Of a stretch of DNA of 64,000 bases, positions 1 through 8,958 are shown in pieces (position 1 is the first letter of the stretch; the number at the start of each line of letters is the position of its first letter). The notes below the pieces were generated by a model that worked only from the letters and a program-made list of their open reading frames with translations, was not told where the DNA came from and ran no database searches. The DNA is from Eubacteriaceae bacterium (GTDB taxonomy: Bacteria > Bacillota > Clostridia > Lachnospirales > Lachnospiraceae), in NCBI GenBank assembly GCA_910575665.1, contig CAJTFB010000004.1, positions 1 through 64,000 of the forward strand, written 5' to 3'. Position numbers and translations under genes: made by a program.

Positions 1-208
1 ATTCGGTTTTGCGTAAAACATATCGAAGGTCTGTTAAAGTTACCCTTTTTTCTGAAAAACATATCAAAATCTTTTTCAAAAAGTTCTTGACATATCACCA
101 GAATGCTCGTGACATGTATCTGTAACATGTATTCCTTTTCAGCCAACCAGCTTACCTCCATTTTTTATTGTGGTTTAAGCCATCTTTTGATACCGATTCA
201 TTTTCTCT
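1..208. other. Gene-free left edge
   Basis: No gene is supported here. The stretch is AT-rich and lies downstream of the minus-strand lipoprotein gene. It holds a short inverted repeat acatgt/acatgt near 113-131 and a lone TTGACA near 88-93 without a convincing -10 box. Nothing else is seen. Confidence 0.5.
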
Positions 209-2761: not shown

Positions 2762-4867
2762 TCATTTAATTTTGATTTTTACGCTTGCTTTCTTGCCGCT
2801 CCCATCCGTGGCTATGGCGGTGATTCTGACGGTTCTGCCTTTCCCGGCTTTCTTGGCCGTAACTTTGCCCTTACTGGTTACGGATGCATATTTGGAATTG
2901 CTGCTCGTCCACCGCAGCGTTTTGTTTGCCCCACTAGAAGCCGTAACTTTTGCTTTAAGCTTTGTGGATTTTCCGGGTTTCATGGAACGTCTTTTTTGCC
3001 CGGAGATAGCCACCTTCTTTACGACGCCTTTCATGCACTTGATTTTATAGGAAGCCTTTTCCCCGCTCCCATCTATTGCAATCGCAGTAATTGTAACGGT
3101 TTTACCTGCCCCAGCCTTTTTTATTGTAACAACACCTTTACTGTTGACTGCTGCATACCTTGTATTGCTGGATTTCCAAATGACAGATTTATTTGCAGCA
3201 TTGGACGGTGTCACCGTAGCCTGAAGTGTAATTTTCTTTCCGACAGCTATTTTGTGCGAAAGCCCGGAGAGTTTAATCTCTTTCACCTTGACGGTAGACG
3301 GATTTTGGGGTTCCGGATTTTGAGATTCTGGATTTTTCGGCTCGGTATCGCCAGGGTTCGGTTTATTGATCGTTGTGTTTCCAGGATTGTTATCGCCCGG
3401 GTTAGGGTTATTGTTTGTCGTATCTCCGGGATTGTTATCATCATCTAAGTTAAAGGCGAAGCCATTCTCTTTTGCATATGTTTCTGCCGCCGACCCACTT
3501 TCCCCATAGATGGCAAAGCCGGGGATTTTCTTTTCCCACCTTTCGCCCTTTTCATCTTTGCCGGATTTATACCCCAACGCAAGACGCCCAATCTCCGTTA
3601 CGCTGCCCGGAACAGTCACATCTGTCAAATTGCAATTCTCAAATGCGGAATCCCCAATTTTTGTCACTCCATCCGGAATTGATACATTCGCTAAACTGGC
3701 GCAATCCGCAAAAGCATATCTTGCAATGCCCGTCAAATTATTAGGCAGCGTTATGCTTTTTAAACTACCGCATTTGGAAAACGCACAATCCCAGATGTTT
3801 TCTACGCTTTCCGCGATAGATACGTCAATCAGCCTACTGCAGCCGGAAAATACAAAGGAGTTTATGCGCGTCACACCTGCGGGAATTGTTATGCCGGTCA
3901 GGCTACTGCAATCTTTAAATGCACCAATTCCAATCTCTACCACGCTACCGGGAATCGTGATGTTTGCTAAGCTACCGCAGTCTTGAAATGCGCCGGTTCC
4001 AATGCCCAGCACGCTCTCCGGGAGCATTATAGTCTCCAGGCGGCTACATCCGTCAAACGCGAAGTGCCCGATTGTTGTTACGCCCTCCGGGATTATTATA
4101 CTGGTTAGGCTGTTGCAATCCTGAAACATACGATCCTCAATATCTGTTAAATTCTCTGAAAGATAAACTTCGCTCAGGCTGCTACACGTGCAGAACGCAG
4201 ACTCTCCGATATGTATGACGCTGTTCGGGATTGCTATATTCGCCAGGTTTTCGCAGTACGCAAACGCATATTTCCCGATGCTTTCCACTCCTTCTGAGAT
4301 TGTCACGTTCATCATGTTGCTGCAATTTACAAACGCAAAGTCCCCGATGCTCACCACGCTCTCCGGAATATAAATATCAAGCAGATCTTCACAGCGAGAA
4401 AATGCATGGTCCCCAATCGCGCCCACTCCATTCGGGATTATAACAGTCCCCGGTTTTCCCTCGGGGCAACGCAGCAATTTTGACCTGTCCCTGTTATACA
4501 GGATACCGTCGTATGAAGAAAAATTCGTATTATCATCGTCCACTACAATAAACCAAACAGTCCAATCTGAAAATGCATTTTCATCAATATCCGTTACGCT
4601 TGCCGGAATTCTCACAATAATACGGCTTTGGCATTCATCGAATGCATGCGCCCCAATCGCAGTGACTCGGTTTGGGATTTCAATTTCTGTATCCGTCCCC
4701 AGGTATTTCTCAAGAATCCCATCCCGTATTAAAAACCCATCTTTATCTGTATTCCCATACTCATACTCTGCCGCATATGCACCTTTACCGCCAACTGCAA
4801 TTCCAAGGCAAAAAATTGCTGTACACGCCACCATGCACCATTTCCATAATCCAAATTTTTTCTTCAA
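2762..4867 (-). CDS. BspA-like leucine-rich-repeat surface protein with two Ig-like domains
   Basis: This is a secreted cell-surface protein of about 701 residues. I chose the TTG at 4867 because it has a strong AAGGAGAG site 8 nt upstream and gives a clean signal peptide (basic start, hydrophobic core to about residue 25, cleavage near AYA-A at 32). The upstream ATG at 4939 has no ribosome site and lies inside a terminator hairpin. Residues about 35-455 are tandem BspA/TpLRR-type repeats of about 23 residues (pattern IGxxAFxxCxxLxxIxIPxSVxx). A Pro/Asn/Asp linker follows (about 470-525), then two BIG2-type Ig-like domains to the end. Such proteins bind host or microbial ligands. No sortase motif is seen. 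Confidence 0.85.
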   Translation of the reverse strand: MKKKFGLWKWCMVACTAIFCLGIAVGGKGAYAAEYEYGNTDKDGFLIRDGILEKYLGTDTEIEIPNRVTAIGAHAFDECQSRIIVRIPASVTDIDENAFSDWTVWFIVVDDDNTNFSSYDGILYNRDRSKLLRCPEGKPGTVIIPNGVGAIGDHAFSRCEDLLDIYIPESVVSIGDFAFVNCSNMMNVTISEGVESIGKYAFAYCENLANIAIPNSVIHIGESAFCTCSSLSEVYLSENLTDIEDRMFQDCNSLTSIIIPEGVTTIGHFAFDGCSRLETIMLPESVLGIGTGAFQDCGSLANITIPGSVVEIGIGAFKDCSSLTGITIPAGVTRINSFVFSGCSRLIDVSIAESVENIWDCAFSKCGSLKSITLPNNLTGIARYAFADCASLANVSIPDGVTKIGDSAFENCNLTDVTVPGSVTEIGRLALGYKSGKDEKGERWEKKIPGFAIYGESGSAAETYAKENGFAFNLDDDNNPGDTTNNNPNPGDNNPGNTTINKPNPGDTEPKNPESQNPEPQNPSTVKVKEIKLSGLSHKIAVGKKITLQATVTPSNAANKSVIWKSSNTRYAAVNSKGVVTIKKAGAGKTVTITAIAIDGSGEKASYKIKCMKGVVKKVAISGQKRRSMKPGKSTKLKAKVTASSGANKTLRWTSSNSKYASVTSKGKVTAKKAGKGRTVRITAIATDGSGKKASVKIKIK

Positions 4868-4924
4868 GATTTTCTCTCCTTCCCGCAAACCAAGCCAGCC
4901 TAAAACCGACTGCCTAATTCTCTC

Positions 4925-4947
4925 AAAAAAGCGGCTCATGAACCGCT
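4925..4947 (-). terminator. Intrinsic terminator in the leader of the LRR gene
   Basis: On the minus strand agcggttca/tgagccgct forms a tight hairpin followed at once by six T residues (complement of 4925-4930). It lies 57 nt before the TTG start of the LRR gene, so transcription entering from the presumed switch region must pass it. It could act as an insulator or a regulated attenuator. Confidence 0.65.
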
Positions 4948-4954
4948 AAAATAC

Positions 4955-4988
4955 AAGATGTAACACTTTATTGAGAGTGTTACATCTT
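4955..4988. repeat. Putative recombinase core site: 13-bp inverted arms around an 8-bp spacer
   Basis: The perfect inverted arms are aagatgtaacact (4955-4967) and agtgttacatctt (4976-4988), separated by ttattgag. An arm-spacer-arm layout of this size is what tyrosine recombinases use as a core site, and a recombinase gene begins about 210 bp away. A plain hairpin is the alternative. Confidence 0.5.
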
Positions 4989-5135
4989 TTACGTCCCACA
5001 AGCCGCCGATATGCTATAAAAACGCCGTTTATTATGATATTGTGTACAGATTTTCTACATTTTAGTATAACTGACCCTTGAATATAAATGGTTTTGATGT
5101 TAAAATTGTATCAATATCAATAAAGTGTTACATCT
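4956..5135. repeat. 19-bp perfect inverted repeat bounding a 142-bp segment (possible invertible switch)
   Basis: Positions 4956-4974 and 5117-5135 are perfect reverse complements over 19 bp and enclose 142 bp of AT-rich non-coding DNA. The segment lies between the surface LRR gene and the tyrosine recombinase gene. The right copy repeats one arm and 7 of 8 spacer bases of the site at 4955-4988, in inverted orientation. The layout matches phase-variable promoter switches. Actual inversion is inferred, not shown. Confidence 0.5.
5040..5068 (+). promoter_or_regulatory. Possible promoter inside the putative invertible segment
   Basis: TTGTGT (5040-5045) and TAGTAT (5063-5068) are spaced by 17 bp and point towards the recombinase gene. 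If the 142-bp segment were flipped, this promoter would face the LRR gene. The boxes are weak matches, so this is tentative. Confidence 0.35.
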
Positions 5136-5198
5136 GCCCCTTTTGTGGCGATACGCTATCATCAGCCGTATCTTACGACAAAGGGGGCTTTATTTATT

Positions 5199-5771
5199 AT
5201 GGCAGCAACAGAACCAATCAGGGACAAGAAACAGTTAAAGGAACTTGCAAATTATTTTTTGAAGAAAGGACAGCTGCGTAATTATACGCTTGTGTTGATG
5301 GGGACATATACCGTTCTTCGGATTAGCGACCTGCTGCGGCTTAAATGGTCGGATGTGTATGACGAAGAAAGACAGGCATTCCGTACCCATATTACCGTGA
5401 CAGAGAAGAAGACCAAGAAAAAGCGCACCATTGCTTTAAACCCACAGCTGCTGGGCGCACTCAAGCAGTGTTACCTCCACCGCCGGGGCGATTATATTTT
5501 TGCCAATAACCGTAAAGAGCCAAAGGCAATCAGCCGGGTGCAGGCGTGGCGGATTATCCATGCCGCAGTAGTGGAACTGGGGATTATGGGCAAGATCGCC
5601 TGTCATTCTTTGCGGAAGACTTGGGGATATCATGCAATCACAAACGGGGATGTATCACTGGCAGTAGTTGTAGATATCTATAACCACAGCAGTTACGAGA
5701 CTACCAAGCTTTATCTTGGCATTAGACAGGATGAGCGAGACGAGGCGATACTTAAGATGACATTGTTTTAG
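5199..5771 (+). CDS. Short tyrosine recombinase (catalytic domain only)
   Basis: This site-specific DNA recombinase has 190 residues. The start at 5199 is chosen for the AAGGGGG site about 10 nt upstream. The full catalytic set is visible: Arg41 (in VLRISDLLRLKW), His136 and Arg139 (HSLR), His163 (NHSS) and nucleophile Tyr172 (TTKLYLG). The N-terminal core-binding domain of ordinary integrases (about 100 residues) is missing, giving a minimal enzyme like those found next to invertible loci. Its gene lies 63 bp from the right copy of the 19-bp inverted repeat, and no phage or ICE genes accompany it. A local inversion role for the LRR gene is inferred. It could instead be the relic of an integrated element. 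Confidence 0.85.
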   Translation: MAATEPIRDKKQLKELANYFLKKGQLRNYTLVLMGTYTVLRISDLLRLKWSDVYDEERQAFRTHITVTEKKTKKKRTIALNPQLLGALKQCYLHRRGDYIFANNRKEPKAISRVQAWRIIHAAVVELGIMGKIACHSLRKTWGYHAITNGDVSLAVVVDIYNHSSYETTKLYLGIRQDERDEAILKMTLF

Positions 5772-5814
5772 CTGGCAACAGACATGATTTTATGTGATTA
5801 AACCTTCTTGAGTT

Positions 5815-5849
5815 GACAGAGCGCAGAAAATTGATCTCTACGCTCTGTC
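5815..5849. repeat. 9-bp inverted repeat after the recombinase gene
   Basis: gacagagcg (5815-5823) and cgctctgtc (5841-5849) form a hairpin 44 bp after the recombinase stop. No T-tract follows, so it is at best a weak or factor-dependent terminator. Confidence 0.4.
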
Positions 5850-5958
5850 TTGTGATGGATAAAAGTGAGTATTTCCTAATGAGTGTTACTGGAAAGCAAT
5901 ATTATACGCAAAATGCGTATTATCACCGTTGCCGCACACACCGGGTTTATGAGAATGA

Positions 5959-6162
5959 CTCAACTTTCTCCGTACGGGCCGCTATGGTCGTTCAGGCGGT
6001 CTTATTGGCGGGCGTATTGCAGGTGCCCTTTGGTGGTCATCCGAGGTTGGTTCCGATAGCGACGGGCGCGGTCTAGACACGAGTCCAGCAGTCGTCAACC
6101 CTCAATACAGTTACTACCGAGGAGACGGTTTTGCCGTTCGCTGTGTGGTACGGGAGGGGTGA
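5959..6162 (+). pseudogene. C-terminal scrap of a lectin-fold (FISUMP/DUF1566-like) protein
   Basis: This frame is open for 67 codons with no start and ends at TGA 6160-6162. It reads as the end of a larger protein: LNFLRTGRYG, then ALWWSSEV, then NPQYSYYRGDGFAVRC and VVREG. The WWSS...YYRGDGFAVRCV pattern is characteristic of the C-terminus of Fibrobacter major paralogous/DUF1566-type C-type-lectin-fold domains. Upstream sequence in this frame is closed by a TGA, so the rest of the gene is lost or shifted. The local composition (GGGCGGGCG, GACGGGCGCGG) is richer in G+C than its neighbours, which suggests foreign origin. The family assignment rests on pattern recognition only. Confidence 0.55.
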
Positions 6163-6303
6163 GAAAGTGTAAACTCATACAAAAATCAGTTAATGCTTTT
6201 GGTACAAAATGGTGCATCGTGTAAAATCACTCTCAAAACTCCGCTGTCTTTACGGTATAATTTCCTCCTCAAATCCCCATTCATTTACCGCTTCCAATCA
6301 TAG

Positions 6304-6350
6304 AATAAGGCGTTCACCTCTATAAATCGGGGCAAACGCCTTATTATTTT
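6304..6350 (+). terminator. Hairpin terminator between convergent regions
   Basis: aataaggcgtt (6304-6314) and aacgccttatt (6335-6345) form an 11-bp stem followed by ATTTTT on the plus strand. It lies 19 nt after the end of the minus-strand toxin gene and may serve both strands. Confidence 0.65.
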
Positions 6351-6368
6351 TGTATCAAACGTGACGTG

Positions 6369-6821
6369 CTAACTTGGCTCATTGGATAGGTATTTCTTAT
6401 ACAGGACATTGGCTTTATTGCAGATTACCTCATTATTCATCTGACACCATTCCAGTTCCAAAGTACATAACTTCTTATAATATCTGATATTTTCCCTGTC
6501 TCTCTTAAAAATGGTGGTATCAACAAGTTGTAATTGCTCTTCTTCAATAGGTATCATCAGATTAAAATTTAGAACACCTAATAATTTTTCATTTACTTCA
6601 ATTTTAGAAAAGTCCATAGAATTTTTCATGTTCTTATGTTTTTCCTTTGGCGATGAAAGTGGTATGCAATATTTGTGAATGCCACAAATAACAACAATCC
6701 CGATGAAAACCCTGTTATCTTTTCCTGCCTGTGGCGAAACAGAAAGCACTTTATCGTCTATATTATGTAGATTACGGATATATTTCATATCCACCTTGTA
6801 TAATTTAAAATCTGTCTGCAT
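6369..6821 (-). CDS. toxN: ToxN/AbiQ-family endoribonuclease toxin (type III toxin-antitoxin)
   Basis: This 150-residue protein has the ToxN/AbiQ/CptN fold signatures. They are an N-terminal YKVDMKYI strand, FIGIVV near residue 39, the PLSSPKEKH segment (about 54-62), and LGVLNFNLMIP (about 81-91), followed by a helical C-terminus. Family members are sequence-specific endoribonucleases that cut their own antitoxin transcript into repeats, which then wrap and inhibit the toxin. Phage infection disturbs this balance and stops growth. The upstream region supplies the expected partner: promoter, structured repeats and an intrinsic terminator before the GAGGAGA ribosome site. The family call is firm. 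Whether it is nearest ToxN or CptN cannot be settled by eye. Confidence 0.88.
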   Translation of the reverse strand: MQTDFKLYKVDMKYIRNLHNIDDKVLSVSPQAGKDNRVFIGIVVICGIHKYCIPLSSPKEKHKNMKNSMDFSKIEVNEKLLGVLNFNLMIPIEEEQLQLVDTTIFKRDRENIRYYKKLCTLELEWCQMNNEVICNKANVLYKKYLSNEPS

Positions 6822-6834
6822 ATATCTCCTCGTT

Positions 6835-6865
6835 AAAAATGGCTATGCGTTTCCACATAGCCATT
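6835..6865 (-). terminator. Terminator between RNA antitoxin and toxin gene
   Basis: On the minus strand aatggctatg and catagccatt pair as a 10-bp stem (6838-6847/6856-6865) followed by TTTTT. Partial termination here sets a high antitoxin-RNA to toxin-mRNA ratio, which is the standard type III arrangement. Confidence 0.8.
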
Positions 6866-6932
6866 TGTGTAGTAACTCCATTAGAGTTGCTAACGCTTTT
6901 AGCAGTCCACTTTGCGGTAGGACTCACCACTA
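6866..6932 (-). ncRNA. Type III RNA antitoxin (degenerate repeats)
   Basis: The transcript between promoter and terminator contains two similar stem-loop units. One has agtcc pairing with ggact, followed by GCTA. The other has aactc pairing with gagtt, followed by ACTA. Each unit is about 30-35 nt, the size of pseudoknotted type III antitoxin repeats. Only about two units are present and they are imperfect copies, so repeat borders are approximate. Function is inferred from position and from the ToxN-like neighbour. Confidence 0.6.
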
Positions 6933-6937
6933 ATAGT

Positions 6938-6965
6938 ATAATACCATATTACTGAAAATAGTCAA
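6938..6965 (-). promoter_or_regulatory. Promoter of the type III toxin-antitoxin locus
   Basis: On the minus strand TTGACT (6960-6965) and TATTAT (6938-6943) are separated by 16 bp, just upstream of the antitoxin RNA. Confidence 0.6.
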
Positions 6966-7040
6966 TCATTTTTCAAAATTTAAAATAAATGCCTAGAAAA
7001 TAATTTTTTGGCATTACGCAATACTGTTGGCGTGATGTTG

Positions 7041-7049
7041 TGGTATAAT
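7041..7049 (+). promoter_or_regulatory. Extended -10 promoter of the regulator gene
   Basis: A TGG-TATAAT sequence with perfect hexamer at 7044-7049 stands 22 nt before the start codon at 7071. It is divergent from the toxin-antitoxin promoter. No good -35 box is seen, as is usual for extended -10 promoters. Confidence 0.55.
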
Positions 7050-7070
7050 TTGGATAGTGGAGGTGAAAGA

Positions 7071-7661
7071 ATGCTTCGGACATACTATATTTTCACCTAT
7101 GGATTTACTGCCATAGAGGAAAATATCATAGGGAAAATGCTGCCTGATAAGAAAAGCGTTTTGGTATCAGCAGACTGCTTTACAGATTTGGTAGCTTGTA
7201 ACTCATATGCAATTTTAATTCATGCTGCTTCTGTAGCAGATGAGGATTTTAAAATGCTGTGGAATTATTATCTTGAAGTAGGTGCAAATGCTTTGGAAGC
7301 AGTTATTGTTGTGGGAAATACAGACGTTCCAAAACAGCTAAAAAAACGAATAAAAGTATATTTCGGTTTTGAGGAACTCTGTCAGGATTTAAAGTATATT
7401 CTTTTATCGGCTTACCGTAGCCATAAGAAAACAGGAAATTTCAGTGCCACACTGGCAAATGCAATTGTGATATTAAGCAAAATCCGCTGTTGCCCCGGCA
7501 TTACAACAGTTCAGTTATCCGAAGAACTGGAGATTTCGCAGCGTTCCGTTCAACGCTATATTGCAACATTAACAGCGGCGGGGGAATGGATAGAATATGA
7601 CAAAATATTAAGGGGATGGAAATTGACAGACGGAAAATCCGTTCTTTGGGGCGATTGGTAA
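7071..7661 (+). CDS. Winged-helix regulator-like protein
   Basis: This 196-residue protein starts at an ATG with GGAGGTGAAAG immediately upstream. The C-terminal third carries a DeoR/HTH_11-type helix-turn-helix: TTVQLSEELEISQRSVQRYI, followed by a wing (AGEWIEYDKILRGWKL). The N-terminal 130 residues form a small alpha/beta domain with no recognised family. The gene lies 34 nt before the nuclease gene and is co-oriented with it, so it may control that gene or respond to the same signal. The DNA-binding role is inferred from the C-terminal motif alone. Confidence 0.7.
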   Translation: MLRTYYIFTYGFTAIEENIIGKMLPDKKSVLVSADCFTDLVACNSYAILIHAASVADEDFKMLWNYYLEVGANALEAVIVVGNTDVPKQLKKRIKVYFGFEELCQDLKYILLSAYRSHKKTGNFSATLANAIVILSKIRCCPGITTVQLSEELEISQRSVQRYIATLTAAGEWIEYDKILRGWKLTDGKSVLWGDW

Positions 7662-7695
7662 TATCAAAATAGATTATCGAAAGGAGATGTTTAAC

Positions 7696-8958
7696 ATGGG
7701 ATATGAGGCAGAATTATTATCTCAAATCAATATGAACTGTAAGGAATTTCCGCCCTATGCGCCACTATCTGATTACAATGTGTTTCATATATTGGGAATC
7801 AGCGCAAAGGAAGTTATTATGTGCCGTTTTTTAGCAGATTTATTAAATCCTGAAGGAAAGCATGGGTGTGGAATATCGTTTTTGAAATCTTTTATGCATG
7901 ATGTATTAAATGAATACTCCATGAGCGATATACTGCTTGCACGTACAGAGGTTGCAGCAGAATATGTGATAGATAATGAACGGCGTATTGACATCGTGAT
8001 TCAAAATCCATGCTTTTTTGTCCCTATCGAAGTCAAAATTTATGCCGGAGAACAGGAGGGGCAATGCTACGACTATTATCAATATGCGAAAAATTCTCGG
8101 CTTGTCTATCTGACAAGGTTTGGGAATGCCCCCTCCGAATACAGTCGGAAAGAGAAATCAGGAACGGGCATTCTGCCCATTGACCGTATACAGTGTATTT
8201 CATGGGCGGAAGATATATGCGGATGGCTTAATAAATTGACAGCGCAGTTAGCCGAGCCGGTAAAATCAACTGTTATGCAATATATTGATGCAATTCATGT
8301 TGTGGCAGACGAAAGGGGCAGGAAAATGATGGAAAAAAATTTGGAAATATTATATGAGTCACCTGATTATTTTCGTGCGGGAATAGCAATCGAAAAGTCC
8401 ATGAAATCGGCAAAGATAACGCTCATGCGTCTTGTGTTTGACGATTTGAAGAAAGAGATGGAGAAAATCACGTCAAAGTATGGGTTAGAGCCCGAAAAAG
8501 AATTTCATTACTTTACATACGAAGAAAAATGCAATGAAAAATTTTATGACGGAAATACATCTACTTGTCCTGGATTAAATTACATTGTAAAAAAGGCAAA
8601 GTTACGCCCTCAAAATATCCAAATGTGGTTCCGTATTGAGGTGCAGGATAATCTTTACGCAGGAATTGCATTATTTGATACAAAAAATGGTTATGAGGTA
8701 GATGAAATAACAGAACAGATGATTGGGCAGATTGCACAATACATAAACGAAGATACTGTTACTCCTGCAGGCTGGTGGGTTTCATGGTGTTATCCAAACG
8801 GGAAAATTCAAGATGGATATTATGATGATGTACCGGATTTTAAGCATATGAATCCCTATGCAGTAAGCCTTGTTGATAAACAAAACAGAATGGAATTTGT
8901 AAAAAGCGCTGTGAAAAATTTTGAAGAACATATTTTAAAACATTTGAAGAACCTTTAA
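7696..8958 (+). CDS. PD-(D/E)XK nuclease superfamily protein (PDDEXK_4-like)
   Basis: This 420-residue protein starts at the second ATG because the AAGGAG site overlaps the first one. The nuclease core is clear: R97-I-D99, then PIEVK with Glu112 and Lys114, then EQEGQCYDYYQYA, matching the superfamily's D...ExK-Q...Y pattern. The N-terminal FHILGISAKEVIMCRFLADLLNP segment is typical of the PDDEXK_4 family (PF14281), found in accessory and defence-associated loci. The C-terminal half (about residues 230-420) is mostly helical and ends in a region rich in aromatic residues, perhaps a sensor. It sits beside a type III toxin-antitoxin locus and a regulator, so an anti-phage role is plausible but unproven. 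Confidence 0.8.
   Translation: MGYEAELLSQINMNCKEFPPYAPLSDYNVFHILGISAKEVIMCRFLADLLNPEGKHGCGISFLKSFMHDVLNEYSMSDILLARTEVAAEYVIDNERRIDIVIQNPCFFVPIEVKIYAGEQEGQCYDYYQYAKNSRLVYLTRFGNAPSEYSRKEKSGTGILPIDRIQCISWAEDICGWLNKLTAQLAEPVKSTVMQYIDAIHVVADERGRKMMEKNLEILYESPDYFRAGIAIEKSMKSAKITLMRLVFDDLKKEMEKITSKYGLEPEKEFHYFTYEEKCNEKFYDGNTSTCPGLNYIVKKAKLRPQNIQMWFRIEVQDNLYAGIALFDTKNGYEVDEITEQMIGQIAQYINEDTVTPAGWWVSWCYPNGKIQDGYYDDVPDFKHMNPYAVSLVDKQNRMEFVKSAVKNFEEHILKHLKNL

Follow-up and report, generated by a model that had tools for sequence, protein, structure and literature searches.

Within the window, by which we mean the whole 64,000-nt stretch of DNA analysed here (the start of contig 4 in a 4.19-Mb genome of 163 contigs), the region between an LRR surface-protein gene and a small tyrosine recombinase gene reads as a self-contained promoter-inversion switch, in which the recombinase flips a promoter segment and LRR expression follows; we place the probability of this reading at about 0.85. 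In the mechanism that we propose, the neighbouring 190-aa recombinase would bind the GTAACA/TGTTAC arms of two inverted sites with an 11-6-11 layout and exchange strands inside their identical 6-bp cores, which would invert a segment of ~150 bp with a single promoter. In orientation A, that of the window, the promoter would point toward the recombinase and the LRR gene would be off, while in orientation B it would point toward the LRR gene and perhaps also toward a lipoprotein gene that follows on that strand. A leader hairpin would conceal the recombinase ribosome-binding site (RBS) in transcripts from the invertible promoter, and a shorter RNA with a freer RBS could be initiated at a box within the loop, so that recombinase production would continue in either state.

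The most conspicuous element is a perfect 19-bp inverted repeat at 4956–4974 and 5117–5135, which the repeat finder reported within a 40-nt pair (83%). It is the longest in positions 4701–5400, and none of 2000 first-order Markov sequences built from that interval reaches 19 bp (longest 14). The original prediction had placed this repeat, enclosing 142 bp, between a surface LRR gene and a minimal recombinase with all catalytic residues and no N-terminal core-binding domain; the repeat search and the letters themselves agree with the coordinates and the enclosed length, and open reading frames and Pfam matches agree with the gene setting. The segment between the repeats (4975–5116, 142 bp) is presumed to invert, given the natural flips of homologous segments described below.

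The presumed switched gene (2762–4867, minus strand) encodes an LRR_5/Big_2 protein with an LRR_5 match of 470.8 bits, two Big_2 stretches and, by eye, a signal peptide. Comparison with L034, the single relative that shares this LRR gene, favours a start at the TTG at 4867, behind the SD sequence AAGGAG, and not at the ATG at 4939. The label 'adhesin' for this protein is a guess from its domains. Downstream on the same strand, at 209–1945, there is a lipoprotein-like gene whose product weakly resembles WG repeats (24.3 bits, short of the cutoff of 25.6); WG proteins are also the upstream genes at L040 and L056.

On the other side of the repeat, the recombinase gene (5199–5771, plus strand) encodes 190 aa comprising the catalytic domain only. 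PF00589 (Phage_integrase, 89.4 bits against a cutoff of 27.1) is its sole Pfam match at E <= 0.001, a search in which no N-terminal SAM-like domain was found, in line with what had been predicted. Residues R41, K71, K74, H136, R139, H163 and Y172, to which we attribute catalytic roles, are invariant in 23/23 aligned recombinases, which likewise bears out the claim of a full catalytic set. Profile matches are to XerC-like, XerA and XerD chains; the protein falls short of the Xer equivalogs (XerD, 55.7 vs 329.6 bits; XerC, 39.3 vs 335.15), matching the C-terminal part of the models only, and of the NCBIfam cutoffs for tyrosine-type DNA invertases (NF007371, 32.7 vs 222 bits; NF007370, 31 vs 221), presumably the FimE and FimB models. 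FimB and FimE are themselves catalytic-domain-only proteins of ~200 aa. Despite its sub-cutoff model scores, the recombinase seems to work like the DNA invertases. The window's genome has one close copy of it; C10 encodes a paralog at 35%, and C109 gives a weak match at 29%.

Relatives were collected through the recombinase: 40 loci come from one genome-collection scan, L089 from IMG/VR, and a few more, among them L004 and L075–L077, from genome searches. All loci were located in this way, and the linkage between sites and recombinase is therefore seen from the recombinase side. Among the recombinases compared, 64 to 99.5% identical to that of the window, all but the one at L053 adjoin a core-matched site pair, a linkage from which the neighbouring recombinase would be the enzyme that performs the flipping. 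More distant relatives (L005–L031) were read by eye and enter no count; two of them, L006 and L014 (51% and 48% identity), have paired inverted sites near the recombinase by eye, with GTAACA and GTGAC arms. Six of the contigs with recombinases 69–99.5% identical to the window's (L032, L049, L051, L055, L059 and L064) are labelled as Candidatus Saccharibacteria MAGs, and mis-binning is the likely source of these labels.

Comparison across loci defines the recombination sites. The left site (4958–4985, plus strand) reads ATGTAACACTT TATTGA GAGTGTTACAT, with its core at 4969–4974, and the right site (5106–5133, minus strand) is inverted, with core TCAATA at 5117–5122 and a degenerate inner arm. 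The 24-nt left site, GTAACACTTTATTGAGAGTGTTAC, matches the reverse complement of the right site at 21/24 positions. The original prediction was right that the left end is a complete arm-spacer-arm site and that the right end repeats it in inverted orientation; its 13-8-13 layout gives way to 11-6-11 with the 6-bp cross-locus core, and the right end has a second arm as well, degenerate, where a single arm had been described.

The core stands out by being constant within loci and variable between them. In 21 hand-chosen representative loci, positions 10–15 of the 24-nt site are the same at both ends without exception, which none of 20000 partner shuffles attains; L053 and loci without a callable pair had been set aside beforehand, and near-copies and 25-nt sites (L040, L052 and L075) are likewise outside the 21. 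Between loci, identity per core position is 0.31–0.81, with the letters at positions 11–14 agreeing about one third of the time, and 17 different cores occur among the 21. Because the pair-finder used initially scored the core itself, we added a blind calling in which nothing but the outer arms and the ATG distance was used. Applied to 46 upstream regions, of which three were too short (L061, L070 and L071) and five fell below the arm threshold (L065–L069), it returned identical cores (6/6) in 37 of 38 loci, near-identical copies included; the exception is L053, which has kept its recombinase and has sites with mismatched cores. A looser blind rule that ignores distance, and which misplaces weak right arms, gave matching cores in 26/41. 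Since cores are identical within loci and variable between them, the exchanged region is most simply taken to be 6 bp, and the site 11-6-11.

Nearly identical recombinases can be found beside different cores. Between L032 and the window, recombinase identity reaches 99.5% at the protein and 98.8% at the DNA level, yet the core of L032 is TGTTTA, differing from the window's, and its 24-nt sites are spaced 195 bp apart as against 124 bp in the window. Seven genomes (assemblies) hold two or three such switches, and cores differ in all 9 within-genome pairs, a pattern compatible with cores acting as addresses. Selection for distinct cores within a genome was considered and dropped: 0/9 pairs share a core, but only 4/210 representative pairs do so anyway, which leaves the comparison no power. 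A cultured relative, Petralouisia muris NM01_1-7b, has two such switches (L033 and L037). Another genome with two is seen at L090 (2390–7086), where two divergent recombinases lie ~3.5 kb apart with the presumed target genes between them. A search of the window's own genome for further switches by the arm pattern (<=1 mismatch) found 11 per strand and the reversed control 14, hence no excess. The sole other perfect match there, on C44 (L079, 1501–1526), is a lone hairpin near the contig end. Window positions 1–114 reappear reverse-complemented at the end of C44 (L079, about 1542–1655, by eye), beside this TGTAACC...GGTTACA hairpin; the duplication is an assembly break at a repeat.

Inversion itself can be observed in the relatives. 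Loci L044 and L049, from different assemblies, differ as found at 88 positions in the 260 nt that precede the recombinase start, and at none once L044 is flipped computationally; seven adjacent breakpoint pairs, spanning the core, all give exact identity. Similarly, mismatches of L045 and L046 to L049 fall from 88 to 3 and from 87 to 4 upon flipping. In a second pair, L063 and L089, flipping reduces the 104 mismatches over 263 nt to 3, and any of nine breakpoint pairs, which again span the core, gives this result. The central 6-bp core is inside both breakpoint intervals (L044/L049 and L063/L089), and the sequence outside the segment is preserved on both sides in both pairs. Precise inversion of this kind, with the outer sequence preserved, is the product expected of conservative site-specific inversion. 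Both inversion in relatives and a conserved right copy were thus found (two inverted pairs, and a core-matched site pair at 37 of the 38 called recombinase loci), the opposite of what the original prediction had named as evidence against itself; its notion of an invertible switch gains support from relatives in which this architecture occurs either way round and the breakpoints fall within the predicted sites. As close relatives occur in both orientations, the segment is most likely an on/off switch for a surface protein. At the LRR locus, the flipped state is absent from the two copies compared, the window and L034, both in orientation A.

The segment carries a putative promoter, TTGAAT-17-(TG)nTAAAAT with an extended −10 TG, at 5078–5106 on the plus strand, facing the recombinase (orientation A) as had been foreseen. 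The consensus match by itself lacks significance (4 matches vs a mean of 3.3 in shuffles of 4700–6300), and its weight comes from its recurrence in relatives: the best sigma-70-like match, typically TTGAAn-17-TGnTAAAAT, sits at one segment end in the scored loci. By consensus score, used without a shuffle control, 29/37 loci, window and L034 included, have the promoter pointing toward the recombinase (A) and 6 have it pointing toward the upstream gene (B), some margins being thin (L059, 10 vs 9; L077, 9 vs 8). The remaining two, L060 and L064, are ties that both look B by eye. In the terms used for invertons, inverted repeats flank a promoter, here recognised by consensus and recurrence, and both orientations with breakpoints in the repeats are present in two relative pairs, at loci other than the window's.

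The right site is followed, ahead of the recombinase gene, by a leader hairpin, GCCCC...GGGGC (5136–5188, plus strand), which pairs the recombinase RBS, AGGGGG (5182–5187). It is present at this place in 22 folded leaders, with the RBS included in its 3′ arm, and the leader folding energy is more than 2 sd below that of dinucleotide shuffles (z < −2) in 20/22, the exceptions being L050 and L077. In its loop, a TATCAT box (5157–5162, plus strand) is a putative −10 of the recombinase that would act independently of orientation. At the aligned column the loop reads TATnnT in 22/22 leaders, with a G two bases earlier in 19/22; no −35 for this box is recognisable in the leaders. The mean unpaired probability of the six RBS bases is 0–0.25 in the long RNA vs 0.35–0.82 in an RNA starting just past the loop box, and is higher in the truncated RNA for every one of the 22 leaders (for L048, a box upstream of the aligned one was used in this folding). 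Covariation, assessed by RNAalifold on a MAFFT alignment, gives the hairpin little or no support (5 pairs, one of them changed on both sides), and the structure is based instead on per-sequence folding; Rfam at its gathering threshold returned no match in the window. Our supposition is that the recombinase has a promoter within the hairpin loop and that read-through from the invertible promoter would be poorly translated, in which case the hairpin would have the role proposed for it above. Given that the hairpin pairs the RBS, the enzyme is probably made whatever the orientation of the segment. Some transposases are known whose start site is hidden in transcripts that originate outside.

On the LRR side, an intrinsic terminator for leftward transcripts is predicted at 4930–4947 (minus strand; a 7-bp stem and then a T run). 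By eye, in alignment A3, it is kept in window-like loci only, with changed stem letters, and is absent from the others. Standing between the switch and the LRR gene, it should weaken orientation-B transcripts, and for this reason control of LRR expression by the switch is something that we infer from the arrangement of the locus. The upstream (divergent) gene, chosen mechanically, has its start no farther than 141 bp from the left site in 24/33 loci, with the left-site position of L069 assumed in this count. Among 21 upstream genes scanned in relatives, six encode Big_2, WG, InlB/ricin or VWA/lipase domains, two DUF11 (one below cutoff), one NeuB and one an integrase N-terminal domain; the other 11 have no Pfam family, and several of these proteins start, by eye, with lipoprotein-like signal sequences. 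Surface-type genes stand upstream in some relatives, which speaks for the switch reading, and many other upstream genes cannot be recognised as such, which speaks against it. At L064 (3629–6571, minus strand), a large protein with LRR_5, Lipase_3 and Big_2 is encoded convergently with the recombinase, on the side away from the switch.

The switch family could be real and the window copy nevertheless frozen in orientation A, or flipping too rarely to matter. Both available copies of the LRR locus are indeed in A, and the right inner arm of the window is degenerate, but the two cores agree, the recombinase is intact and has kept its catalytic residues, and a similarly degenerate promoter-side arm (GATAC) is found in the flipped pair L044/L049; we regard a frozen copy as unlikely and suppose that the window copy still flips. 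It is also conceivable, though decidedly unlikely in our judgement, that inversion chiefly regulates the recombinase, with the surface gene as a bystander. The hairpin that pairs the RBS would blunt such control, and the divergent gene starts no more than 141 bp from the left site at most of the loci measured, points that have to be set against the dominance of orientation A (29/37), the variety of upstream genes and the terminator that guards the leftward exit in window-like loci.

Control might instead act on the leader RNA, through termination or antitermination as in C. difficile cwpV, and not through promoter direction. Terminator-like or RBS-pairing hairpins are present outside both ends of the segment and lend this idea some appeal; however, being outside the inverting DNA, they stay unchanged by a flip, whereas the promoter does change, and for cwpV the promoter is described as lying outside the segment in the account given in PMC2784873, so that we consider termination control quite improbable. 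Barely credible, finally, is a mobile element for which the two sites would serve in attachment or resolution. Small recombinases related to this one do turn up often on plasmids and phages (1139 plasmid and 150 phage records with a match, all <60% identity), but a promoter recurs between the sites, and attachment sites were rejected as a candidate on the two precise inversions with outer sequence preserved. The promoter-inversion switch remains the preferred reading.

Switches that pair an invertible promoter with a tyrosine recombinase close by are well established as a kind; what seems new here is a family whose 99.5%-identical recombinases serve different cores. No title naming this family or its parts was found among the open-licence papers searched. 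The dif site has the layout 11-6-11, and the present sites share it, just as the recombinase shares profile matches with XerC-like, XerA and XerD chains; unlike in Xer/dif, no N-terminal core-binding domain was found, and paired inverted sites surround a promoter. The E. coli fim switch, as outlined in PMC2784873, also has an invertible segment that bears the promoter. The likeness to fim extends to the adjoining recombinase and the surface target, the latter presumed in the window, and ends with one recombinase in place of two, the 11-6-11 sites, the RBS hairpin and scores far below the invertase-model cutoffs. In C. difficile, recV is not near cwpV and RecV acts on several switches (cwpV and flagellar), to follow the outlines in PMC2784873 and PMC5903667, whereas the window recombinase is adjacent to its segment and the promoter is inside it, that of cwpV being outside (PMC2784873). 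Judged by published descriptions, the set that comes closest is inverton group 139, together with tyrosine invertase group 35: inverted-repeat switches, 32/33 in Clostridia, with a tyrosine-type recombinase nearby, in some of which orientation shifts over culture passages, according to the summary in PMC11892184. That description, as far as it extends, makes no mention of core matching or of an RBS hairpin (PMC11892184), both features of the window's family.

The locus adds to the gut Clostridia a well-defined family of probable surface-protein switches, with natural inversions in public assemblies. The 6-bp core rule predicts that inversion needs matching cores and that different cores block cross-talk between switches, and the hairpin would explain simply how a switch keeps its own recombinase from being silenced or from running out of control. 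Arms, core and leader hairpin together make a signature by which such switches can be found without reads. More tentatively, and at somewhat less than even odds, we speculate that this is a portable, self-insulated phase-variation cassette family of Lachnospiraceae and relatives, in which an arm-specific mini-recombinase would accept any shared 6-bp core as an address preventing cross-recombination, RBS hairpin and loop promoter would free the recombinase supply from the switch state, and the whole could be placed before any surface gene.

Beyond the recombinase, 5880–6163 (plus strand) contains a fragment with a broken frame by eye, which resembles the C-terminal end of some larger protein (YYRGDGFAVRCV-like), and similar stretches are found beside the recombinase copies in L043 and L066, the one in L043 without a Pfam match. 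A ToxN-type endoribonuclease gene follows at 6369–6821 (minus strand; PF13958, 129 bits); the array typical of a ToxN RNA antitoxin was not found in 5771–7100, where Tandem Repeats Finder reported one short array (5995–6019), nor did Rfam give a match in the window. In L032, a ParE-type toxin gene (3912–4220; PF05016, 37.4 bits) lies ~340 nt downstream of the recombinase, and similar open reading frames occur in L033, L035, L036, L065, L068 and L069, the L032 copy alone having been scanned against Pfam. Further along the window, a gene of the PDDEXK_4 nuclease family (7687–8958, plus strand; 107.3 bits) stands behind a winged-helix gene (7050–7661).
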